From Archivesica marissinica (Eukaryota; Mollusca; Bivalvia; Venerida; Vesicomyidae), in assembly GCA_014843695.1 (NCBI GenBank), contig CM026390.1, positions 101,560,722 to 101,624,721 on the forward strand: 64,000 nt of DNA, read 5' to 3'. Both the position numbers and the translations under genes were made by a program. This document shows positions 2,147 to 64,000 of the stretch, one piece after another (the stretch's first letter is position 1; each line of letters opens with the position of its first letter). Below the pieces are notes generated by a model that saw nothing but the letters and a program-made list of their open reading frames with translations, did not search any database and was not told where the DNA came from.

Positions 2147-3146
2147 NNNNNNNNNNNNNNNNNNNNNNNNNNNNNNNNNNNNNNNNNNNNNNNNNNNNNN
2201 NNNNNNNNNNNNNNNNNNNNNNNNNNNNNNNNNNNNNNNNNNNNNNNNNNNNNNNNNNNNNNNNNNNNNNNNNNNNNNNNNNNNNNNNNNNNNNNNNNNN
2301 NNNNNNNNNNNNNNNNNNNNNNNNNNNNNNNNNNNNNNNNNNNNNNNNNNNNNNNNNNNNNNNNNNNNNNNNNNNNNNNNNNNNNNNNNNNNNNNNNNNN
2401 NNNNNNNNNNNNNNNNNNNNNNNNNNNNNNNNNNNNNNNNNNNNNNNNNNNNNNNNNNNNNNNNNNNNNNNNNNNNNNNNNNNNNNNNNNNNNNNNNNNN
2501 NNNNNNNNNNNNNNNNNNNNNNNNNNNNNNNNNNNNNNNNNNNNNNNNNNNNNNNNNNNNNNNNNNNNNNNNNNNNNNNNNNNNNNNNNNNNNNNNNNNN
2601 NNNNNNNNNNNNNNNNNNNNNNNNNNNNNNNNNNNNNNNNNNNNNNNNNNNNNNNNNNNNNNNNNNNNNNNNNNNNNNNNNNNNNNNNNNNNNNNNNNNN
2701 NNNNNNNNNNNNNNNNNNNNNNNNNNNNNNNNNNNNNNNNNNNNNNNNNNNNNNNNNNNNNNNNNNNNNNNNNNNNNNNNNNNNNNNNNNNNNNNNNNNN
2801 NNNNNNNNNNNNNNNNNNNNNNNNNNNNNNNNNNNNNNNNNNNNNNNNNNNNNNNNNNNNNNNNNNNNNNNNNNNNNNNNNNNNNNNNNNNNNNNNNNNN
2901 NNNNNNNNNNNNNNNNNNNNNNNNNNNNNNNNNNNNNNNNNNNNNNNNNNNNNNNNNNNNNNNNNNNNNNNNNNNNNNNNNNNNNNNNNNNNNNNNNNNN
3001 NNNNNNNNNNNNNNNNNNNNNNNNNNNNNNNNNNNNNNNNNNNNNNNNNNNNNNNNNNNNNNNNNNNNNNNNNNNNNNNNNNNNNNNNNNNNNNNNNNNN
3101 NNNNNNNNNNNNNNNNNNNNNNNNNNNNNNNNNNNNNNNNNNNNNN
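2147..3146. other. Assembly gap, exactly 1000 N
   Basis: A run of exactly 1000 N interrupts the 32-bp satellite. The round length suggests a scaffolding placeholder rather than a measured distance. Nothing can be said about its content, and open frames drawn through it are meaningless. Confidence 0.99.
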
Positions 3147-17251: not shown

Positions 17252-20200
17252 CTGCAACAAAAAAAACATACATGCAATAATATACAAACAAGCAAATTAG
17301 ATGAATTAATATCCTCCACCAAACTGCTTTAAACGGACAATATGTTGGACCTTTTGGTGAAATTAATTATGTGCATTTAGGGAATTGTGGCGAATATCAA
17401 GCTTTTATTTAATTTTGCCGAAAACTAATCAAAATCTATTTATAATAAGTCGTCATGACCGAAAATCATGGTCTCACACCTCGTTCAATACGAGGGATTG
17501 AATAAAAAAAAATTAACTTTTTCACAGCTACTAGAATTAAGACAATTAAGTGTTCTGATAACAATTGACCTTTCTGCCGATTTTGATTGACAGCTGGCGT
17601 TAGCCAATCGCATCGCACCATTCGCGCACACCCCCGGCAACGGCTTATCGCCGCCATCTTGTTAGACAAACAATGCATATTAGACAAACTAGTAACGAGT
17701 AGACAAATTTGAAAAGGCGTGAATTTGATCGAAAATACGGGTTTAAAATTGTTTTAATGATGTTGAAAATGTGTAGCTTTGGTGTGTGGGTTAGTTATAG
17801 TACAAAATTAGTCGATATCCTGGTGATCGACGTTAAATTCAACCCATTTCAAAATCCTTGGACAAATCTAAGTGTGTATATGAACCACAAAATACCAGAC
17901 AGCTGCTTTAAAAAAAATGCATCTATAAAAACACCGACTGACACTATATAGTCATACTTTTCTAGCAAACACAGCAATCAAATTTAAGCGTGTCACACTA
18001 TTTATTGGGAGTAATCAACAACTTACCGAATACCGGTACATCACAGAGACCGCCGACTTTATAATATCCCGATAGGGGCCTACTGCTATTCAAGATCAAA
18101 GTATTGCACATCGGAATTTAGCACTGATTGTGCTAATTGGTCAATTATAAAATGTGTGCACATAATTATAGTATTGATTACTACACCTAGTCATTGTTTT
18201 ATCGTTCTGTCAGACAAACGAGTTAGTTAGTAAAGTTTTAATCAAATCTGATAACGAGTGATCGTGATCTGAAATTATGTTTTGAAAAATAATTACAAAT
18301 TAATTAATGCTGTCTGTCATTGACAATGGTGAAAAGATGTAGTTACGGTCTGTGTGACAGTGATAGTAGATATCCAGATCGATTGATAGGTGACGTTAAA
18401 TTCGTGCCATTTCCAAAACCTAAGACAAATCTTGAAACATGTCTAAGGTGAATTAAGTTGTGTGGACGACCAAACAACCAGCTGAATACATCCAAAATTA
18501 ATGCAAACAGATATATTTGCACAAAAGTAAGTTGAAATTAATTTATTTATGCATAATAAAATATTTCGAAAAAATATATTCTGCATTTATAGATTTACTG
18601 TTCACAAGAGATATGTGAGTATAATGGTGATTAAAATTATACATGTGGTTCATACATATTGTCGTGGATGGTGGACTAGGGATCAGATAGTAGTAATAGT
18701 ACCCATGCATGTGCAGAGCTGTGGGATTCCCATATTAGCTCAGTGAACATACTGGTGTTCAGTTTTTGGGCCTAATGTTCGAGTCTTCTAGGAGGCATAG
18801 GGTCGAGTCTCTCAAGACGGTGGCATATTTCATTTCTTTTGATGTCAAAGTTGACACAATATGGTTGTTCACTCTTCCGTTGATTGCGAAAGCATTTTCC
18901 ACGAACGCTTAACACGTCCTCATCCGTTAAATATATCTGTACTTTAGAGAAATAACCTTCACTGAAGAACCTAAATCCTTGCTGTCTTGCTTTCAACGAG
19001 ATATTCTTATCTGGGTGAAATAAAACCGAGAAATTCGACGGAATTTTATCTAGATTAACTAGATGCAGGACTGCGTTAGACGCCATTTTGTTAGATAGCT
19101 TGTCTCGCGTGGTTACAGCGAGCACCGGTAACTATGGGGGGCGTGCCTAAGTAGCGTTTGCAGAAAGGTCAATTGGTCATATCCTGCCTGCAATCATGCC
19201 AATATGTGCACATACTGAAACCAACATTGACAATATGCCCAAACACTCACCTTCATCTCGTAACGTAAATCTGCCCATCTGTGGAAAGTCTGAGAATGTC
19301 TCCATACAGACCATTCCTGCATTCACGTGGAATCTTGCAATACCAATCTGGTCTTGCATTATAAACCGTGTTGGAGTTTTTGCACCAGTTTTTTTGTCTA
19401 TTAAACATATGAGGTTTCTAATAGTGACTTCCTCCTCCACTGTATTAAGATGTAACACTGCACTATATCCTGCACAGATTATTGACTTGTGCTCCAATAT
19501 CACAATCTGAAGTTCATAATATACAATCTGTAGGTCACAGTATACAATCTGAAGATCATTATATACAATCTAAAAATCAATATATGCAATCTGAAGTTCA
19601 TAATATACAATCTGTAGGTCATTATATCAATCTAAAGATCACTATATACCATCTGAAGATCATTATATACCATCTGAAGATCACTATATCAATCCGAAGG
19701 TCACTACAGTCAACTTGTTACAAGCCAACATATATTAAGCAGCCAGTTTCCCAATATGTTTTTTTAATATATATTTGACCTCTATTAAGCAGTCACTTTA
19801 TGTGATTCCCTTGGCTGACTGCTTAAGACAGGTTTGACTGTATATACCATCTGATGTGGAGAATTAACATGTTCAGGAGTAATGAGCAAACCTTTTAAGA
19901 AGAATTTTCTTTCATTATACAGTTTTGACCTTCCATCTACGTACGATCTCAAAAATTCGCAAAATATAAATACTCGTGACAAATAATGTTCTACTGTATT
20001 GCACCAATTTCTGACCTTTGATGGCTAGGTGTGACCTTGACCTTGCAGTTACGGATCATTGTTGTGCATAAGACTTTTGTGGAAACAAAAATGGGTCGGA
20101 TTGACGTTCCGACTTCTGCAAAACATAATAGTCATATATTCTTAGAAAGGGGGCATACTGAACAAGACTTAAGCAAACGTATTACCTACCTTTGCATCAA

Positions 20201-26200: not shown

Positions 26201-29200
26201 CCACCTCCATCAAGGAACCTTTCATTGTATATACTGATGCCACCAGTGCGTCGGTATTCTTTCACAGGAGAAAGCCTCCTTCCAGTTGGCTCGTAGGTCT
26301 GTGATTCTACAAGGCTGTTTGTCTGTCTGAATCACTGCCCCGAGTGACTAGGGTTTTCCTCTACACTTTATCTGTTGCTGCTACCTCCGTTAAAACACGC
26401 ATAAAGAAGTCTGATATCTTACCTGTACCATGAGCAAAGACTTTCTGGAGGGACATCGCGTAGAAACGCTCCAGTTAGACCAGATACGGGGAAGAAATTT
26501 AGATCAGTTTTAGGATTGAAGCCACATTTCTTGAGATACGGAATTAGTTTTTCTTTACATTCATAATACCTGAAAATAGAAAGAACATTTGTGTTTAATT
26601 CTAGAAATTGATATCTACAGTAGTAGGTAGATTAATCTGGAATCAGACTACATGCCTGGTAAACAGCTCAAAAATACTACATAAATAATGTATATAGATC
26701 AGAATTCAAATGACACACATTGAGACGTCAATTAGAAATTCAATTGGTTGGCTCTACCGTAGGACATAGGCACATAGCAATTGCAGAATCTTAGAACGTG
26801 AAATAAAGTCTAACTGATGTACGACTACTAATCTCCTTTAGTGGGTTTATATATTACAAATCCAGCCATCTAAAACAAATCCAGCCATGTAAGACAAATC
26901 CAGCCATCTAAAACAAATCCAGCCATCTAAGACAAATCCAACTATCTACAACAAATCCAACCATCTAAAACAAATCCAGCCATCTAAAACAAATCCAGCC
27001 ATCTAAAACAAATCCAGCTATTGCTAGGAAATCTAATGAAAACAGCTGCTATACAAACCTCATTCAATTGTTTGTATTTGGGGTTTAACGTCACACCAAC
27101 ATCTTAAGTTATATGTCGACTTTCCAGCTATTATTGGTGGAGGAAGACCCTGGGTGCCCCTCTGAGCAGTATTTCAGGCGTGTGTGGGAACACGGGTAGA
27201 ACCACCAACCTTTCGCAAGCCAGCTGGATAGCTTCCTCACATGAAATCATTCGAAACCCAAGTGGGATTCGAACGAGTAGCGGCGAGAGGCAAGTGATTT
27301 GAAGTATCTGACCGTAACCACTCTGCCACAGAGGCCCCTATACAAACCTGGACTTTCTACTGTAGGATCTACAATCCTAGATTCCATCAACTATTGTGTA
27401 GGATCTACAATCCTAGATTCCGCCCACTATACTGTAGGATCTACAATCCTAGATTCCACCAACTATACTGTAGGATCTACAATCCTAGATTCCACCCACT
27501 ATACTGTAGGATCTACAATCCTAGATTCCACCCACTATACTGTAGGATCTACAATCCTAGATTCCACCCACTATACTGTAGGATCTACAATCCTAGATTC
27601 CACCCACTATACTGTAGGATCTACAATCCTAGATTCCACCCACTATACTGTAGGATCTACAATCCTAGATTCCACCCACTATACTGTAGGATCTACAATC
27701 CTAGATTCCACCCACTATACTGTAGGATCTACAATCCTAGATTCTACCCACTATACTGTAGGATCTACAATCCTAGATTCCACCCACTATACTGTAGGAT
27801 CTACAATCCTAGATTCCACCAACTATTGTGTAGGATCTACAATCATAGATTCCACCAACTATACTGTAGGATCTACAATCCTAGATTCCACCAACTATAC
27901 TGTAGTGTAGGATATACAATCCTAGATTCCACCCACTATACTGTAGGATCTACAATCCTAGATTCCACCCACTATACTGTAGGATCTACAATCCTAGATT
28001 CCACCCACTATACTGTAGGATCTACAATCCTAGATTCCACCCACTATACTGTAGGATCTACAATCCTAGATTCCACCAACTATTGTGTAGGATCTACAAT
28101 CCTAGATTCCATCAACTATTGTGTAGGATCTACAATCCTAGATTCCACCCACTATACTGTAGGATCTACAATCCTAGATTCCACCAACTATACTGTAGGA
28201 TATACAATCCTAGATTCCACCCACTATACTGTAGGATCTACAATCCTAGATTCCACCCACTATACTGTAGGATCTACAATCCTAGATTCCATCAACTATA
28301 CTGTAGGATCTACAATCCTAGATTCCACCCACTATACTGTAGGATCTACAATCCTAGATTCCACCCACTATACTGTAGGATCTACAATCCTAGATTCCAC
28401 CCACTATACTGTAGGATCTACAATCCTAGATTCCACCCACTATACTGTAGGATCTACAATCCTAGATTCCACCCACTATTGTGTAGGATCTACAATCCTA
28501 GATTCCACCCACTATACTGTAGGATCTACAATCCTAGATTCCACCAACTATACTGTAGGATCTACAATCCTAGATTCCACCCACTATACTGTAGGATCTA
28601 CAATCCTAGATTCCACCCACTATACTGTAGGATCTACAATCCTAGATTCCACCAACTATACTGTAGGATCTACAATCCTAGATTCCACCCACTATACTGT
28701 AGGATCTACAATCCTAGATTCCACCCACTATACTGTAGGATCTACAATCATAGATTCCACCCACTATACTGTAGGATCTACAATCCTAGATTCCACCAAC
28801 TATTGTGTAGGATCTACAATCCTAGATTCCACCAACTATACTGTAGGATCTACAATCCTAGATTCCACCAACTATACTGTAGGATCTACAATCCTAGATT
28901 CCATCCACTATTGTGTAGGATCTACAATCCTAGATTCCACCCACTATACTGTAGGATCTACAATCCTAGATTCCACCAACTATTGTGTAGGATCTACAAT
29001 CCTAGATTCCACCCACTATACTGTAGGATCTACAATCCTAGATTCCACCCACTATACTGTAGGATCTACAATCCTAGATTCCACCCACTATACTGTAGGA
29101 TCTACAAACCTAGACTCCGCCCACTCTACTGTAGGATCATCCATTTTATTAATTACAACAACTAGCTTTTTCACTCCTGCAGTTTTCACCAACATCGCAT

Positions 29201-32200
29201 GTTCTCGAGTCTGTCCTCCTCTTTCAAAGCCGGTTTCAAACTCGCCTCTTCTTGCCGATATCACCTAAATAGTTAGAATTCCAGTTACTACAGATAAATA
29301 GTACAATAGTTAGAATTCCAGTTACTACAGATAAATAGTACAATAGTTAGAATTCCAGTTACTACAGATAAATAGTACACTAGTTAGAATTCCAGTTACT
29401 ACAGATAAATAGTACAATAGTTAGAATTCCAGTTACTACAGATAAATAGTACACTAGTTAGAATTCCAGTTACTACAGATAAATAGTACAATAGTTAGAA
29501 TTCCAGTTACTACAGATAAATAGTACAATAGTTAGAATTCCAGTTACTACAGATAAATAGTACAATAGTTAGAATTCCAGTTACTACAGATAAATAGTAC
29601 AAATAGTTAGAATTCCAGTTACTACAGATGCTTATGTAGAATATTTGTTGTAATATAGAAAATAACACTGCAAATCAATGAGTTGTCCTCACATTTGAAC
29701 AGTTGTGAAGATGACGGATCAAGACTGTAATCCATTATTTATTAGCCTTGAGCATCAGTCATACATTGACATGAACTTTAATATCCTTCATTGTCAATTA
29801 ACCCATTTAATTCTGGATATATTTAACGGCTTTTGCAAACAACATAGATCCAGATCAGCCGCAGCGTGACGCTACACGCTGATCAGGATCTATGTTGTTT
29901 GCTACATAGCCAAGTGCGTTAGCAAGATCATCTGAATAGCAAACAGCATAGAGCTTGATCAGACGGCACATTCCGTGGTGGCTGATCTGGCTCTATGTTC
30001 TTTGCAAATACTGTTTGAACGGTATCCCGAATGAAATGGGTTAACCCTTTCAACACTGCATACAGTCTACACCCATTATGTCAAAGTCGGTTATGTCGAA
30101 TTCTCCGGTTATCTCGAAGTAAGATCAAAGTCCTGTTTCAGACACTATCATTTTTACATATAACTGGCTCTGTTTATATCGAATATATTTTTTGGTCCCT
30201 TCAGTATAAATGTGCAGTATTTAACACTTGTTATGTCAAAATGCCACGTTTGCAACTTTCATTCGGCAAATTTGCCTAATCAAAGACGGACAACCATGCC
30301 TGTACAAACAAACAATCAATAAAGATTGTTGAGGTGTTTACTGTGACAGTATTATCATTACAGGTACATACTTATCAGCAATCAACCAATCATTAATAAA
30401 TGGCTCATCCCAATAATTGCGATTCAATTAACATATATAGGCATACTTAAACGTGTCAATAATTAGTTTGTTCTTCGAAGCTCAGGAAAATTCTAACCAA
30501 GTGTTACCCGCAATGACAACAATGGACCATTATTTTAGCAAAATCCATCTTTCCCATGTAAATTCTAGGCAATCGGACATATGGAATCCGATAGAGTGTA
30601 AAAGAGACATGTTTAAATTCAAAAGAATACAGCAGACTATTTAATCGAGGATCAGAATCGAGGATCAGTTTATTACTATATCGTTAATGCACCGATTTTT
30701 TATCACAGTTTCGGATGTTATTTACATGTATGTGCTGCATTTTAGTAAATATTAAATACGATATTACAGTGTTATTTTATCAAGTGTGCCCAAGTCACGG
30801 TTACGATAATGACAACATGGAACATGATTTATGGGACAAATGTACGGTGGGTAAGGCTGTGATCTACTAGTACGAAAACAATCATCTTTGGAAATACAGT
30901 CAATATTCGCTATGTCAAACTTCGGTTATGTCGAAGTATTTTATTCGGTTTGACGGAATTCGACACAGCGGATGTAGACTATACCTCTAAATAGGCACAC
31001 GAATATGCATTTATGAATACTTTGAATTTCTTACCAGTACAGCTATATCAGCTTGTGAAGCACCACCAATCATGTTAGGAACAAAACTTTTATGGCCAGG
31101 AGCATCAAGAATGGTGAAATGTTTGTTTTCTGTCTCGAAGTATGCCCTTCCTACCTCCACTGTTTTACCCTTTTCTCTCTCCTCAGTGTTGGTATCCAGA
31201 GCCCATGATAGATACCTGTTGTTGAAGCAATAAGTACACTGATTGAAAATATATCTCCTGGAGCAGTTACGATTGTGCTCTTAGGCAAGCAAGGCATTTA
31301 AATTCCACATTGCCTCTTCTCTCTCCCTCGTGGCGATGGATTCCATCAGGAATAAGGTCTCGAGAGTGATCAATATAAGTTGTAAAAACTTGTTTCACAA
31401 TCGAGCCAAAATAAATTTGTATAAACTATATCTAATGGTCAGTGAGAACGCATCAGCTGTGAGAATGACAAACTTCTTGAACAAAACTTGCCCGATCCGT
31501 AACAGTTGATCTCTTCAAATTAAGCAATCTTGTTTGTGTCTCGGGCTACACTAGAGCATGACTATTCAAGCAGTTGTACCTATTATCTCGAGGATAAGTT
31601 ACAACCTTGGGGCATTGTTCAACAAGCTGCATTCTCAGGCATTCCAATTACCCGAGCACAACATTGAAAATAATGACCAATCATGTCTCAGTATTCAGTA
31701 TGGCTGCAAATCAGCATAAGTTAATAGTTCAACTAGGTGTACATACAGGAGTAGTGTCAACCCTCTATTTTATTTTCCACTTGTGTCAAACTACTTCTGG
31801 GGATCACATGTTTTCCAGGACAGGCGTAGCTGACATATGCGGTTAACAATCGGTAAAACTAAGCAATGATTGTCCTTGCTCACGGACATTACATATGTGC
31901 TGTGATCAAGTATCGAACCCAGGACCCTCCCATTCCAAATGCTATGCTCTACCATTGGACCATGGATTTCACAGCATGGAAACCAACTATTTTCAAGAAG
32001 TCTATACATTTTCTTTGCTGCATTTACTCCTCAGAAACAGTGGAGTATGATTATGCACATCCTAATTTATGCTCATTACAATTTAATACATGCATTACCC
32101 ATCGTGTGGTTTTACCATAAATACATTTTTATTGATTAAAGCAGTAACCTCCAAACTCAAATAGTAAACTAAAAGCAGTGAAAATATAATATTATCTTCT

Positions 32201-38200: not shown

Positions 38201-41200
38201 AGAATTCGGTTACATGTGTTTAGGGTCAAAATGAAAAATACACAAACTGTGATATTGGTGTTATTGTGAGTATAATCACGTTTTGCAGCTCTCCTAATGG
38301 TTTTGTTGTAATTATTTGATTAATACCGGGTATGGCCGCCAGTTTGTCTGTAACCTGTACAATACGGCGTCTCATGGAATTGACGTAACGTTGCAAGACA
38401 TGTGCAGGTATGTTGTTCCATTCCATCTGCAGAGCATTCTGTAGGCCCTGCAAATTGTTGACGACATGTCTTGACCTAACTCTATGACCAAGAACATCCC
38501 AGATATGCTCGATTGGGTTGAGGTCAGGAGAAACGGCAGGCCAAGGCAAGGCGCTAACGCCATTTGCATTTAGGTATTGCTGCGTTAGCTGTGCGCGGAT
38601 GTGCATTGTCGTGCATCAATGTGGCGGGTGCATGCTGATTAACGAATGGAACAGCTACTGGTCTTAACACCTGCATTAAGATTGCCATTAACAATAACCA
38701 GATCAGTTTTCCTGTTTCCCATGATCCCGCCCCAAACCATAACACTGCCCCCGCCAAAACCTGTTTCTCTCTACAACACAGGCGTTAGCAAATCGCCCCC
38801 CCTCTCCTCCTAAATACCCCCACCCTCCCATCATGATGACTCGGGTTAAACCTAGATTCATCGGAGAAGACAATTCTATCCCACTGACGTCTTTGCCAGC
38901 GGAGATGAAGCCGTGCCCAATTCAAACGAGCAACGCGATGACGTCGTTCGAGTACATTAGCAACGTAAGCCCGTCTAGGTCTGATAGGCCGAACACAAAG
39001 ACGCAGACGACTCAGAACTGTGTCCCTGCTAATACCGTACTGCCTCGCTGTAGCGCTAGCACTTTGGAAACGACGCCTGGTGTGCGTCAGTTCAAAATGA
39101 CGGTCTAATATGACGTCAGTTACACGAGGCCTGCCGGTTTGAGGACCTTCGACAACTGGCACGAAGTTCACTTACTGTGTTTCTGTGACAATTAAATGCC
39201 CATGAAACAGTATCGATGGAGTCACCTCTGCTAAGCATCATCAAAGCTTCAATACATTGACGCTGAGAGAGTCTGGGTATGGCGAGTTTTGAAAATATTC
39301 AAATTGCTGTGTGTTTTTCTTACTCCTAGATGTTGTAAGAAAGTAATGAGAGATTATTTGACCGATTTCACATTTGTCCAGACATTGCACGGGCAAATCG
39401 TGCAAAATGCTTGTATAGGGACGTTACGTAACAATACTGACACAATACTGACAGATATAGTCATTGTTCAACACAGTGACAGGCGTGCTTCACGTGCTAC
39501 ACATATGAAATATTTATAACCGATATAACTATAGCTATCATAAAAAGAAACGTGCACACTTTCTTTTGCGTTTGAGTATACTTTAATTGCCGAGTTGATA
39601 TCCCAATCATCCCAACCAGTTTAATATCGCAAATTAGCCCTGTGTGTCAAAAGATTGTTATTCACATGCATTCCGAGACTAGTGCTGAAGCATATGTAAT
39701 GTGTACATAGTATAAATACAAATTGGTGTGCTAATTTTATCGTTTGTATTGGATACACACCACACTTGGTCGTGCACAGTCTTGACCCTCCTCAGTAGAC
39801 GTCGTTAGTGGTGTTGAGGAGTGTCTCCTTGAAGTTTCAAGTATTTAAGTTTCATGTTACTTTGTAAATTGTATAGTTCTACATTCTATCCCAGTTGCAA
39901 AGGTCACCAAATGATCATGAGTAGTTCATTTCAACATCTCAGCCTTCTGGGGTACTGCACCCAGATTAGTCTTGACAAACCAATAGAAATATATATGTCG
40001 ATTACACACAAAAAATGTTGATCTAACATTTAATTTTATTATGAACGAAATTTTGCGGTTCCACAATATTGTTGGTAAAGCATAAATTTCTTAAAAAATA
40101 AAGCGAACACATTCATTTCAATATCTATAGATGAAACTTATCTATCTATCTTCCTTTTATGTCAAACCCCTCGCGGGGACGTAGACATGTTGCGCGTCAA
40201 AAACCGCAAAGAAGTTAAAAGTATGAGTAGTTAAAAGCATTAAACTTTAAATTTAACATCTTTTTTATATGCATAATTAGTATTATTTGCGAATAAAACT
40301 AAAATTTATCGTGAGGAAGAAAGGGGAATTTTGATCAGCTGTTTCGCAAACTGGGACTATTCAGAATATTTTCGTTCATAATGTAAATTTAAATGAAAAT
40401 ACCACTTTTTTGCCAATTTACAGAATATTTATTAAAAGTTCAAGCTTTTATCTTGCGGTAAATCTATGCACGTTCATTATGAATAACCCAATGCAGGGTT
40501 ATTGCATATTATCCGAAACTTTGGTTGATAAAACTGCTTTGTCCCCAAGAAAACAATATACGAGTTTTCCGATTTATGTCAATAATTATTGGTAACACAT
40601 TTATAGTTTGTTTTTTCTTCTTCCGCCCATCTGATTATTATTGGGAGGTCATTCGGTTTTGGCAGAGAGTAGACCACCCACATTTCCTGTTTAATAACAT
40701 GTACTTGACTCTCCAACATGCATAGATGATAGAGTGACTGGCAAATTTCCCACATATCACCATTTATCACTTGTCCCTGAAAGGGAACAAACATACAGCC
40801 CTGATAATAGTGGTGAAAGTCTAGTTCTAACGATGGCTTGTTAGACCACTGGACAACGGAGGCTTAACGTTGAAGATGTATCCGATTAAACGTTAGATCC
40901 GAAAGTTCCTACACTTTCATAATTGGCATTATGCCCTAGCACATTATATAATGAATGAACATTTATATGTTTAAAACTCAAATAACTACTATCAAAACAC
41001 AACAGAAAGACTTGCCAGAAACATCACTTCCACCAACCCCACCGGAAGGCACAAAACTGTATGCATATGGGTTCTGTCCGGGGACAAACGAGGGTGCGTT
41101 TATGTTTAGGGCTGCAAGGGGTTTATCTAACGTATCATCTACTTGCGCTTCATTCACATCAGTATCCCATGAATCTGGAGCATTGCTTTGATTGTTTGTA

Positions 41201-54400: not shown

Positions 54401-57400
54401 GTATGGGAGATGTTACTGTGGTTGCCAGATCGGACAGGTGGGTTTTCTCTGGGTACTACGGTTTCCTTCCACATGAATGACCACATTTACGCTTTCATTC
54501 GCGCCAACAAGAGTGATTAATATAAGTTGTTAAAACTTGCTTCGTTGTAGGCTGGTTACTGATCACTCTCCTGTCTATCCATGGTTACTGATCACTCTCC
54601 TGTCTATCCATGGTTACTGATCACTCTCCTGTCTATCCATGGTTACTGATCACTCTCCTGTCTATCCATGGTTACTGATCACTCTCTTGTCTATCCATGG
54701 TTACTGATCACTCTCCTGTCTATCCATGGTTACTGATCACTCTCTTGTCTATCCATGGTTACTGATCACTCTCTTGTCTATCCATGGTTACTGATCACTC
54801 TCTTGTCTATCCATGGTTACTGATCACTCTCTTGTCTATCCATGGTTACTGATCACTCTCTTGTCTATCCATGGTTACTGATCACTCTCTTGTCTATCCA
54901 TGGTTACTGATCACTCTCTTGTCTATCCATGGTTACTGATCACTCTCTTGTCTATCCATGGTTACTGATCACTCTCTTGTCTATCCATGGTTACTGATCA
55001 CTCTCTTGTCTATCCATGGTTACTGATCACTCTCTTGTCTATCCATGGTTACTGATCACTCTCTTGTCTATCCATGGTTACTGATCACTCTCTTGTCTAT
55101 CCATGGTTACTGATCACTCTCTTGTCTATCCATGGTTACTGATCACTCTCTTGTCTATCCATGGTTACTGATCACTCTCTTGTCTATCCATGGTTACTGA
55201 TCACTCTCTTGTCTATCCATGGTTACTGATCACTCTCTTGTCTATCCATGGTTACTGATCACTCTCTTGTCTATCCATGGTTACTGATCACTCTCTTGTC
55301 TATCCATGGTTACTGATCACTCTCTTGTCTATCCATGGTTACTGATCACTCTCTTGTCTATCCATGGTTACTGATCACTCTCTTGTCTATCCATGGTTAC
55401 TGATCACTCTCTTGTCTATCCATGGTTACTGATCACTCTCTTGTCTATCCATGGTTACTGATCACTCTCCTGTATATCCATGGTTACTGATCACTCTCTT
55501 GTATATCCATGGTTACTGATCACTCTCTTGTCTATCCATGGTTACTGATCACTCTCTTGTCTATCCATGGTTACTGATCACTCTCCTGTCTATCCATGGT
55601 TACTGATCACTCTCTTGTCTATCCATGGTTACTGATCACTCTCTTGTCTATCCATGGTTACTGATCACTCTCTTGTCTATCCATGGTTACTGATCACTCT
55701 CCTGTATATCCATGGTTACTGATCACTCTCTTGTATATCCATGGTTACTGATCACTCTCTTGTCTATCCATGGTTACTGATCACTCTCTTGTCTATCCAT
55801 GGTTACTGATCACTCTCCTGTCTATCCATGGTTACTGATCACTCTCCTGTCTATCCATGGTTACTGATCACTCTCCTGTATATCCATGGTTACTGATCAC
55901 TCTCCTGTCTATCCATGGTTACTGATCACTCTCCTGTCTATCCATGGTTACTGATCACTCTCTTGTCTATCCATGGTTACTGATCACTCTCTTGTCTATC
56001 CATGGTTACTGATCACTCTCTTGTCTATCCATGGTTACTGATCACTCTCCTGTATATCCATGGTTACTGATCACTCTCTTGTATATCCATGGTTACTGAT
56101 CACTCTCTTGTATATCCATGGTTACTGATCACTCTCTTGTCTATCCATGGTTACTGATCACTCTCTTGTCTATCCATGGTTACTGATCACTCTCTTGTCT
56201 ATCCATGGTTACTGATCACTCTCCTGTCTATCCATGGTTACTGATCACTCTCCTGTCTATCCATGGTTACTGATCACTCTCTTGTCTATCCATGGTTACT
56301 GATCACTCTCTTGTCTATCCATGGTTACTGATCACTCTCTTGTCTATCCATGGTTACTGATCACTCTCTTGTCTATCCATGGTTACTGATCACTCTCTTG
56401 TCTATCCATGGTTACTGATCACTCTCTTGTCTATCCATGGTTACTGATCACTCTTGTCTATCCATGGTTACTGATCACTCTCCTGTCTATCCATGGTTAC
56501 TGATCACTCTCCTGTCTATCCATGGTTACTGATCACTCTCCTGTCTATCCATGGTTACTGATCACTCTCCTGTCTATCCATGGTTACTGATCACTCTCTT
56601 GTCTATCCATGGTTACTGATCACTCTCTTGTCTATCCATGGTTACTGATCACTCTCTTGTCTATCCATGGTTACTGATCACTCTCTTGTCTATCCATGGT
56701 TACTGATAACTCTCTTGTCTATCCATGGTCACTCTCTTGTCTCTCTGTTGTAGAAGAGCAAGGAGGAGGAAGAAGAGAAGGAAGCCAAGCTGCAACAGGA
56801 GAGGGAGGAGAGGGAGAAGGAAAGGGAGGCAGAAAGGGAGGAACGTAAGAAGAAAGAGGAAGAGAGGAAGAAGGAACGAGAAGAGAGAGAGAAAGAACGA
56901 GAAAAGAGAAAGAAGCGCAGTAGATCAAGGAGTCGAAGCCGCAGATCCAGAAGTAGAGACAGGTGAGATTGTTGGAGATTTCGTTCATACATAGACCCTG
57001 GCATCAAAATTGGCTTAAGCCACGAACATCAAGTATGGGTCAGTAAATCTTCTGAAATTGGTCAAACGACTACAATAGAATAATAAGATATTGTATTGTT
57101 CATACAAGAATTGACCAGTAGCCGCCTGTCAATCAGTTCTAAGCTTAGAAAATAATGCCATTAGATATGGATATGGAAATTAATGGTATGTAAACATTTA
57201 GCAAATAGTACTTATATATATAGATAAAAATGCTAGCTAGTTACTTATAAAGATAAATCGGCAAACGTTAACGATATTCCTGCTTGTTGAGCAAACATAG
57301 AACTATTTATTTCTCATTCATTGGCACTGTTTGTATAAAGTCCATCATTCTATTGTTGATTTCTAATTGCTGATGAATAGTTACTAATCTGGATGCTCCA

Positions 57401-57648: not shown

Positions 57649-57671
57649 GTAAGAACCTTTAGTTGTAATCT

Positions 57672-60600
57672 TCATACCGATACAGTTCATACCGATACAG
57701 TTCATACGATACAGTTCATACGGACACAGTTCATACCGATACAGTTCATACAGATACAGTTCATACAGATACAGTTCATACCGATACAGTTCATACGGAT
57801 ACATTTCATACGGATACAGTTCATACCGATACAGTTCATACGGACACCGTTCATACCGATACAGTTCATACGGACACAGTTCATACCGATACAGTTCATA
57901 CAGATACAGTTCATACAGATACAGTTCATACCGATACAGTTCATACGGACACAGTTCATACCGATACAGTTCATACAGATACAGTTCATACAGATACAGT
58001 TCATACAGATACAGTTCATACGGACACAGTTCATACGGATACAGTTCATACGGACACCGTTCATACGGATACAGTTCATACGGATACAGTTCATACGGAC
58101 ACCGTTCATACGGATACAGTTCATACAGATACAGTTCATACGGATACAGTTCATACGGACACCGTTCATACCGATACAGTTCATACGGATACAATTCATA
58201 CGGACACCGTTCATACGGATACAGTTCATACGGATACAGTTCATACGGATACAGTTCATACCGATACAGTTCATACGGATACCATTCATACGGATACAGT
58301 TCATACCGATACAGTTCATACGGACACAGTTCATACCGATACAGTTCATACCGATACAGTTCATACCGATACAGTTCATACCGATACAGTTCATACAGTT
58401 CATACAGATACAATTCATACGGATACAGTTCATACAGATACAGTTCATACCGATACAGTTCATACCGATACAGTTCATACCGATACAGTTCATACGGATA
58501 CAGTTCATACGGATACAGTTCATACCGATACAGTTCATACCGATACAGTTCATACGGATACAGTTCATACCGATACAGTTCATACCGATACAGTTCATAC
58601 CGATACAGTTCATACAGTTCATACAGATACAGTTCATACCGATACAGTTCATACAGATACAGTTCATACGGATACAGTTCATACGGATACAGTTCATACA
58701 GTTCATACCGATACAGTTCATACCGATACAGTTCATACCGATACAGTTCATACGGACACCGTTCATACCGATACAGTTCATACGGACACAGTTCATACAG
58801 TTCATACCGATACAGTTCATACGGATACAGTTCATACGCATACAGTTCATACGCATACAGTTCATACGCATACAGTTCATACGCATACAGTTCATACGCA
58901 TACAGTTCATACGGATACAGTTCATACGGATACAGTTCATACGGACACCGTTCATACCGATACAGTTCATACGGACACAGTTCATACAGTTCATACCGAT
59001 ACAGTTCATACGGACACAGTTCATACGGACACCGTTCATACGGATACAGTTCATACGGACACCGTTCATACGGATACAGTTCATACGGATACAGTTCATA
59101 CAGATACAGTTCATACGGATACAGTTCATACAGATACAGTTCATACGGATACAGTTCATACGGACACCGTTCATACCGATACAGTTCATACCGATACAGT
59201 TCATACAGATACAGTTCATACCGATACAGTTCATACAGACACAGTTCATACGGACACCGTTCATACGGATACCGTTCATACGGATACAGTTCATACCGAC
59301 ACCGTTCATACGGATACAGTTCATACGGATACAGTTCATACGGATACAGTTCATACGGATACAGTTCATACGGATACAATTCATACGGATACAGTTCATA
59401 CCGATACAGTTCATACGGATACAGTTCATACGGATACAGTTCATACGGATACAGTTCATACCTATACAGTTCATACCGATACAGTTCATACCGATACAGT
59501 TCATACGGACACCGTTCATACCGATACAGTTCATACGGACACCGTTCATACGGACACCGTTCATACGGACACCGTTCATACGGACACAGTTCATACGGAC
59601 ACAGTTCATACGGACACAGTTCATACCGATACAGTTCATACGGACACCGTTCATACGGATACAGTTCATACGGATACAGTTCATACGGATACAGTTCATA
59701 CGGATACAGTTCATACCCATACAGTTCATACCCATACAGTTCATACGGACACAGTTCATACAGATACAGTTCATACCGATACAGTTCATACCGATACAGT
59801 TCATACGGATACAGTTCATACGGATACAGTTCATACGGATACAGTTCATACGGATACAGTTCATACGGATACAGTTCATACGGATACAGTTCATACGGAT
59901 ACAGTTCATACGGACACCGTTCATACGGATACAGTTCATACGGATACAGTTCATACAGATACAGTTCATACCGATACAGTTCATAAGGACACCGTTCATA
60001 CGGACACAGTTCATACGGACACAGTTCATACAGATACAGTTCATACCGATACAGTTCATACCGATACAGTTCATACCGATACAGTTCATACCGATACAGT
60101 TCATACGGATACAGTTCATACGGATACAGTTCATACGGACACAGTTCATACGGACACAGTTCATACACATACAGTTCATACAGTTCATACGGACACCGTT
60201 CATACGGATACAGTTCATACGGATACAGTTCATACGGATACAGTTCATACGGATACAGTTCATACGGATACAGTTCATACCGATACAGTTCATACGGATA
60301 CAGTTCATACGGATACAGTTCATACGGACACCGTTCATACCGATACAGTTCATACCGATACAGTTCATACGGACACCGTTCATACCGATACAGTTCATAC
60401 CGATACAGTTCATACCGATACAGTTCATACAGATACAGTTCATACCGATACAGTTCATACGGACACCGTTCATACCGATACAGTTCATACCGATACAGTT
60501 CATACGGATACAGTTCATACTGATACAGTTCATACCGATACAGTTCATACGGACACCGTTCATACGGATACAGTTCATACGGATACAGTTCATACGGACA

Positions 60601-63600
60601 CCGTTCATACCGATACAGTTCATACGGACACAGTTCATACGGACACCGTTCATACGGACACCGTTCATACGGACACCGTTCATACGGACACAGTTCATAC
60701 GGACACAGTTCATACGGATACAGTTCATACGGACACCGTTCATACGGATACAGTTCATACAGATACAGTTCATACGGACACAGTTCATACGGACACCGTT
60801 CATACGGACACAGTTCATACGGACACAGTTCATACGGACACCGTTCATACGGACACAGTTCATACGGACACAGTTCATACGGACACAGTTCATACGGATA
60901 CAGTTCATACGGATACAGTTCATACGGATACAGTTCATACGGATACAGTTCATACGGATACAGTTCATACGGACACAGTTCATACGGACACCGTTCATAC
61001 GGACACCGTTGACACGGACACAGTTCATACGGATACAGTTCATACCGATACAGTTCATACGGACACAGTTCATATGGACACAGTTCATACGGACACAGTT
61101 CATACGAACACAGTTTATACCGATACAGTTCATACGGACACCGTTCATACGGATACAGTTCATACGGATACAGTTCATACGGATACAGTTCATACGGATA
61201 CAACGGATACAGTTCATACGGATACAGTTCATACGGATACAGTTCATACGGATACAGTTCATACGGATACAGTTCATACCCATACAGTTCATACCCATAC
61301 AGTTCATACAGTTCATACGGACACAGTTCATACAGATACAGTTCATACCGATACAGTTCATACCGATACAGTTCATACCGATACAGTTCATACCGATACA
61401 GTTCATACGGATACAGTTCATACGGATACAGTTCATACGGACACCGTTCATACCGATACAGTTCATACCGATACAGTTCATACAGATACAGTTCATACCG
61501 ATACAGTTCATACAGACACAGTTCATACGGACACCGTTCATACGGATACCGTTCATACGGATACAGTTCATACCGACACCGTTCATACAGATACAGTTCA
61601 TACGAATACAGTTCATACGGATACAGTTCATACGGATACAATTCATACGGATACAGTTCATACCGATACAGTTCATACCGATACAGTTCATACGGATACA
61701 GTTCATACGGATACAGTTCATACGGATACAGTTCATACGGACACCGTTCATACGGATACAGTTCATACCGATACAGTTCATACCGATACAGTTCATACGG
61801 ACACCGTTCATACCGATACAGTTCATACGGACACCGTTCATACGGACACCGTTCATACGGACACAGTTCATACGGACACAGTTCATACGGACACAGTTCA
61901 TACGGACACAGTTCATACGGATACAGTTCATACGGATACAGTTCATACGGACACCGTTCATACTGATACAGTTCATACCGATACAGTTCATACGGACACA
62001 GTTCATACAGATACAGTTCATACCGATACAGTTCATACCGATACAGTTCATACCGATACAGTTCATACCGATACAGTTCATACGGATACAGTTCATACGG
62101 ATACAGTTCATACGGACACCGTTCATACGGATACAGTTCATACCGATACAGTTCATACAGATACAGTTCATACCGATACAGTTCATACGGACACCGTTCA
62201 TACGGATACCGTTCATACGGATACAGTTCATACCGACACCGTTCATACAGATACAGTTCATACGGATACAGTTCATACGGATACAGTTCATACGGATACA
62301 ATTCATACGGATACAGTTCATACCGATACAGTTCATACCGATACAGTTCATACGGATACAGTTCATACGGATACAGTTCATACGGATACAGTTCATACGG
62401 ACACCGTTCATACGGATACAGTTCATACCGATACAGTTCATACCGATACAGTTCATACGGACACCGTTCATACCGATACAGTTCATACGGACACCGTTCA
62501 TACGGACACCGTTCATACGGACACAGTTCATACGGACACAGTTCATACGGACACAGTTCATACGGACACAGTTCATACGGATACAGTTCATACGGATACA
62601 GTTCATACGGATACAGTTCATACGGACACCGTTCATACTGATACAGTTCATACCGATACAGTTCATACGGACACCGTTCATACGGACACAGTTCATACGG
62701 ACACAGTTCATACGGATACAGTTCATACCGATACAGTTCATACGGACACCGTTCATACGGACACAGTTCATACGGATACAGTTCATACCGATACAGTTCA
62801 TACGGATACAGTTCATACGGATACAGTTCATACGGATACAGTTCATACGGATACAGTTCATACGGATACAGTTCATACCCATACAGTTCATACCCATACA
62901 GTTCATACAGTTCATACGGACACAGTTCATACAGATACAGTTCATACCGATACAGTTCATACCGATACAGTTCATACGGATACAGTTCATACCGATACAG
63001 TTCATACCGATACAGTTCATATGGATACAGTTCATACCGATACAGTTCATACGGATACAGTTCATACGGACACCGTTCATACCGATATAGTTCATACCGA
63101 TACAGTTCATACAGATACAGTTCATACCGATACAGTTCATACAGACACAGTTCATACGGACACAGTTCATACCGACACCGTTCATACAGATACAGTTCAT
63201 ACGGATACAGTTCATACGGATACAGTTCATACGGATACAATTCATACCGATACAGTTCATACCGATACAGTTCATACCGATACAGTTCATACGGATACAG
63301 TTCATACGGATACAGTTCATACGGATACAGTTCATACGGACACCGTTCATACGGATACAGTTCATACCGATACAGTTCATACCGATACAGTTCATACGGA
63401 CACCGTTCATACCGATACAGTTCATACGGACACCGTTCATACGGACACCGTTCATACGGACACAGTTCATACGGACACAGTTCATACGGACACAGTTCAT
63501 ACGGATACAGTTCATACGGATACAGTTCATACGGATACAGTTCATACGGACACCGTTCATACTGATACAGTTCATACCGATACAGTTCATACGGACACCG

Positions 63601-64000
63601 TTCATACGGACACAGTTCATACGGACACAGTTCATACGGATACAGTTCATACCGATACAGTTCATACGGACACCGTTCATACGGACACAGTTCATACGGA
63701 TACAGTTCATACCGATACAGTTCATACGGACACAGTTCATATGGACACAGTTCATACGGACACAGTTCATACGGACACAGTTCATACTGATACAGTTCAT
63801 ACGGACACCGTTCATACGGAACAGTTCATACGGATACAGTTCATACGGATACAGTTCATACGGATACAGTTCATACGGATACAGTTCATACGGATACAGT
63901 TCATACGGATACAGTTCATACCCATACAGTTCATACCCATACAGTTCATACAGTTCATACGGACACAGTTCATACAGATACAGTTCATACCGATACAGTT
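57672..64000. repeat. 15-bp minisatellite, about 420 copies, running off the window
   Basis: The unit is cagttcataccgata; the variable part is cgg, ccg, cag, cgc or ccc, and the variant unit ends gacaccgttcata. Occasional 9-bp half units (cagttcata) occur. It begins about 24 bp after the LUC7L3 exon 9 donor. Frames of up to about 2000 codons on both strands result purely from the 15-bp period. Confidence 0.97.

Follow-up and report, generated by a model that had tools for sequence, protein, structure and literature searches.

The DNA analysed here is a stretch of 64,000 nucleotides from the bivalve Archivesica marissinica (contig CM026390.1; hereafter the window), in which the minus-strand gene is eRF3 (GSPT1). 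The eRF3 exons were located one by one with the human sequence as the query, and the position of the last exon is rough only. The exon at the centre of this analysis, numbered 8 in an earlier note on this DNA, is the sixth that was found. The features at its end are arranged as follows, a slash marking a splice junction:

29110..29264, minus strand: eRF3 exon VISARRGEF..., with a split Arg codon at its end (from homology and splice letters)
29108..29109, minus strand: donor GT of this exon, TAG/gtttgt (from the homologue alignment and splice letters)
26423..26569, minus strand: next eRF3 exon, ttttcag/GTATTATGAATG (from homology and splice letters)
29103..29138, minus strand: first unit of a 36-bp array, made of the 29 last coding bases of the exon and 7 intron bases
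27370..29102, minus strand: 48 interior units, with the donor GT in none and TAG in all
27341..27369, minus strand: shortened terminal unit, which keeps GTAGA and AGgtttgta

The peptide encoded at 29264-29110 aligns with eRF3a chains of solved structure (best E=1.9e-23), and the closest eRF3 among the 120 best matches listed of 7948 found is that of Mercenaria mercenaria, with 84% identity. The junction GAGTCTAG/gtttgt ... ttttcag/GTATTAT gives the split Arg codon. Two of the 120 sequences were dropped from the homologue alignment, and in 117 of the remaining 118 there is no length change across the junction at 29110; the solved eRF3a chains and the molluscan rows that were shown contain the motif DDPTV.W..R/Y. 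The donor at 29109 scores only 14th lowest of 35 donors from four genes, one of the 35 being probably not real because it was guessed where the first eRF3 exon ends. On account of this rank, the notion of an unusually weak real donor was dropped. At that first exon, near window position 41001, a good GT donor is absent where one would be expected, and TTTCTG/GCAAGT may represent a GC donor.

The earlier note had described the exon end and its donor as the first unit of an array of about 49 units in which only four of 36 sites differ, and each of these statements holds. TRF reports the array at 27358-29138 with period 36, 49.3 copies and 95% matches, and splitting it yielded 50 starts, namely the exon's own end (29138-29103), the 48 interior units and the 29-base terminal unit. 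The exon differs from the consensus at sites 13, 20, 24 and 31 (4/36). The interior units, 47 of them 36 bp and one 41 bp long, are identical to the consensus in 28 of 48 cases. Because the array enters the exon in register, chance is not at issue in the homology of exon and array. A search of the window with Rfam returned zero families at the gathering score.

The donor GT is missing from all 48 interior units (46 read AGga and two, at 28778 and 27873, read ATga), and TAG is present in every one of them. The claims that every derived unit reads AGga, carries TAG in place of the exon's GAG and has lost the donor are thus correct for the interior units, apart from the two with ATga, but not for the terminal unit, which keeps both GTAGAA and AGgtttgta. 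Translation read through from the exon halts in the next unit (DPTV-stop), as had been predicted for retention of the array.

The terminal unit is informative about the direction of copying. In the better-scoring alignment it has the exon's base at three diagnostic sites (13, 24 and 31) and a deletion at site 20, and its alignment scores 20.8 with the exon versus 15.2 with the interior units. The exon's C at site 20 is retained in the unit at 27441. Because the residues encoded by the exon end are conserved in eRF3 and the terminal unit equals the exon at the three comparable sites, the exon came first, as the earlier note had proposed, and we conclude from these comparisons that the array is derived from the exon, with the distal end as its older part. 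The opposite course, in which the exon end took its sequence from an independent satellite, is very improbable. Although the interior units resemble each other more than they resemble the exon, the exon end codes for residues common to the molluscan homologues and solved eRF3a, the interior units contain an in-frame stop, the terminal unit sides with the exon, and no other locus was found among the assembly candidates that were scored. A two-unit query against the 1.54-Gb assembly returned at least 23 matches, all at the eRF3 locus; since only the best candidates were scored (one candidate region) and common words were skipped, these counts are lower bounds and uniqueness is unproven. An assembly artefact, by which the array or its copy number would be wrong, is hardly credible. 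Another array in the window, with 32-bp units, is indeed interrupted by a 1000-N gap at 2147-3146, but at the eRF3 locus the units vary, the exon is undamaged, and both the terminal unit and the repeat that flanks the neighbouring SINE-like element are consistent, although the number of units may still be off.

Beyond the terminal unit, the following features were found:

27061..27337, minus strand: interspersed SINE-like element adjoining the terminal unit, of which the annexin gene has another, nearly full-length copy (77%)
27338..27349, minus strand: 5' flanking repeat AGGTTTGTATAG, which takes in the donor of the terminal unit
27049..27060, minus strand: 3' flanking repeat AGGTTTGTATAG, which leads into the remaining intron

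The flanking repeats are 12 bp long and identical, and the annexin copy of the element has, as judged by eye, a flanking repeat of its own. ARAGORN found no tRNA head in the element, and its tRNA-derived look is an impression only. The right flank of the array goes on as the intron sequence gtttgtatag, which is seen again behind the element. Because this flank continues into the remaining intron, the donor sequence and the bases that follow it are probably older than both the array and the SINE-like element. The Rogers model reportedly describes intron gain by AGGT duplication, with the new intron inside a former exon; the right flank gtttgtatag in eRF3 would point to an older intron.

The array at 29138 is not the only one at an exon boundary of eRF3:

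29268..29629, minus strand: 37-bp array of 9.8 copies, which ends 3 bp before the acceptor of the exon at 29110..29264
19497..19706, minus strand: second boundary array, with ..cag/ATTGTAT-like units of about 21 bp, the last of which is the real acceptor (19507/19506)
19251..19506, minus strand: eRF3 exon IVILEHKSI..., the start of which is found again in the units of the second boundary array

The units of the 37-bp array contain copies of ttctaactatt, a sequence that lies in front of the acceptor, and no clear exon sequence was found in them. At the second boundary array, the nine AG/AT sites listed are spaced by 21 bp, once by 20, and end with the acceptor at 19506; most of these sites, which were chosen by the AG/AT pattern, continue as ATTG like the exon. 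The AGs located 21, 42 and 63 nt upstream of 19506 are in frame and open, with IVYYELQ-type inserts, and the AG 84 nt upstream meets a stop in the reading. No insert at this acceptor was found in 117 of the 118 homologues, the remaining one being a truncated Mya protein.

We then added 240 kb of flanks around the window, in which genes were picked by homology to known proteins and by their coding score after masking of the arrays, and so independently of the arrays. Only one exon of UTP6 was found, and this gene was left out of the set, which consists of eRF3, LUC7L3, annexin and unkempt. No junction-crossing arrays were found in LUC7L3 and unkempt, and three arrays lie at annexin junctions:

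genome C5:101819195-101820736: annexin exon end and donor, 24 units including the exon itself, units of 62 or 69 bp with 56 exon bases and the donor
genome C5:101802869-101803034: second annexin exon end and donor in exactly two copies of 84 bp, a two-copy stage
genome C5:101805419-101806843: annexin acceptor array of 70 copies of the 21-bp unit CCCTCTATCATTGTACTTCAG, which ends exactly at the exon and forms a long ladder of AGs

In the acceptor array the unit repeats the intron end, but not clearly the exon. Read-through past the first annexin donor runs, as judged by eye, into a TGA in the second unit. Because 22 of the 23 derived copies in the 24-unit array keep the GT donor, donor loss is not general in such arrays, and the idea that it is a requirement for tolerance was dropped. 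Since these copies keep good donors, correct splicing of annexin presupposes that the exon-proximal site is preferred. Behind another annexin donor, a degenerate exon-like stretch matching at 18 of 22 bases was too short to count.

Arrays are abundant in this part of the genome: they make up 59% of the 304 kb, and in three 10-kb samples taken far away their shares are 28%, 34% and 99.9%. The four genes comprise 35 introns, 70 junctions and 78 arrays, and the arrays fill 53% of the intron bases. Some of these introns may contain missed exons, and the AG check fails for 10 of the 70 splice coordinates, all of them acceptors and nine of them off by no more than three bases. With random placement inside introns, 0.15 array ends touching or crossing a junction were expected versus 5 seen, and without eRF3 0.12 versus 3 (p=0.00025); this null bars exon overlap and therefore mainly tells that junctions are not avoided. 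An earlier test of the window only, which was post hoc, gave p=0.0011 within 5 bp. That arrays arise preferentially at exon junctions, for instance via transcription- or splicing-linked DNA damage, would fit the excess over the inside-intron expectation, with or without eRF3, and is nevertheless rather unlikely, as the founder unit, when left free to fall anywhere, gives an expected 1.55 junction-spanning arrays versus 4 seen (Poisson tail 0.07), and the data come from four genes in one region, one of them chosen for its array. Because of this random-founder expectation, to which the observed frequency of junction arrays is near, we prefer the neutral reading. The existence of like arrays in annexin and at acceptors, together with the share of intron bases that arrays fill in the four genes, also argues against a role of the 36-bp array in regulating eRF3, by which the TAG units would give a poison isoform or slow the splicing of a termination factor. 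We regard such a role as very doubtful, even though each interior unit contains TAG, read-through from the exon stops at once, and eRF3, as a translation termination factor, would be a fitting target.

With the neutral reading preferred, we give a probability of roughly 85% to the scenario as a whole, in which a junction-crossing duplication was tolerated by exon-proximal splicing and then expanded into a structure of the kind known as a mirage in amphioxus. A short tandem duplication would have spanned the eRF3 exon end and its donor. A duplication within the exon would alter the protein, whereas one across the junction would create two donors, of which the exon-proximal one would give the old mRNA. 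The exon-adjacent copy would have stayed in use for splicing, so that the mRNA need not have changed, and the extra copies would have become intron. In one of these, gt would have changed to ga, by which the donor was lost, and GAG to TAG, by which a stop arose, and this copy may have expanded by unequal exchange or slippage into the 48 near-identical interior units, the unit at the distal end retaining older states. The SINE-like element may have entered the end unit afterwards, at its donor sequence, or may have been there before. For acceptor arrays, the mirror argument of the donor case would apply.

The earlier note knew of no described case. Nonetheless, the same structure has been published as amphioxus 'mirages' (PMC3087553, PMC3902484), and it recurs in the same genome at another eRF3 acceptor and at the annexin junctions. 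In amphioxus, the mirages of the globins BflGb6 and BflGb9 and of Adh3 are minisatellite-like duplications of 5' and 3' boundaries with units of 10-160 bp; splice signals persist in many units, though not in all, haplotypes differ, boundary units are excluded from homogenisation, and RT-PCR points to regular splicing (PMC3087553). The eRF3 array is alike in that its unit holds exon (29) and intron (7) bases of a real junction in register, and the units of 36 bp in eRF3 and of 62/69 and 84 bp in annexin fall within the amphioxus range. Splice signals are kept in none of the interior units of eRF3, yet in its terminal unit, in nearly all derived annexin copies (22/23) and in many amphioxus units. 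A normal mRNA despite the array is indicated in amphioxus by RT-PCR; for eRF3, the related observation is protein collinearity (117/118 homologues). The eRF3 case further differs in its bivalve host, in its approximately 50 units and in the loss of all interior donors, and it is known from the DNA of one assembly.

Related structures are described in other reports. In lancelet PGBD5, duplications of 60 and 108 bp over splice sites comprise few imperfect copies, in contrast to the 48 near-identical interior units of eRF3 (PMC3902484). In the potato RdRp gene, tandem duplication across an intron-exon boundary supplied the splice signals for intron gain, whereas the copies seen in eRF3 are held by the present intron only (PMC4974935). 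Human internal tandem repeats with units of about 30 bp, some of them at exon-intron boundaries, change gene structure, and boundary duplication is discussed there as a route to a new intron; these repeats resemble the eRF3 unit in size, but have about four units on average and lie in segmental duplications (PMC2812944). A protostome likeness is found in earthworm metallothionein genes, where a minisatellite lies in an intron and one clone shows repeated exon copies that are absent from the transcript; a unit spanning the splice junction is not stated in the available text (PMC12783039). Among the literature matches listed, from a search outside of which most subscription journals lie, there was no mollusc case of such arrays.

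The eRF3 array is a real, well-preserved mirage with several siblings nearby, in a phylum for which no report was found. In the literature found, mirages are so named only from lancelets, and the eRF3 case extends them to a mollusc. The presence of several mirages in about 300 kb of mollusc DNA suggests that they go with genomes rich in minisatellites and not with lancelets as such. Copy number forms a natural series in this region, from two copies through 24 with donors kept to 48 interior units with donors lost. RNA data on this series would test the choice of the spliceosome among dozens of near-identical sites, as well as a possible contribution of such arrays to the growth or gain of introns. 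It is possible, at slightly less than even odds, that junction-crossing duplication represents a standing, genome-wide growth of introns from exon ends in this bivalve lineage, each case being nearly neutral as the exon-proximal site survives, and that acceptor arrays like that of eRF3 provide a ladder of alternative acceptors that stay in frame (+7, +14 and +21 residues).

Arrays were also observed at 13-26 bp from junctions in LUC7L3, annexin and unkempt, for which exon content is not claimed. In the window, a 29-bp array of 75 copies at 54553-56733 stops about 20 bp before a LUC7L3-like acceptor on the plus strand, and its unit looks, by eye, like the local pyrimidine tract. A 15-bp array of more than 420 copies at 57671-64000 begins directly behind a LUC7L3-like exon and exits the window.
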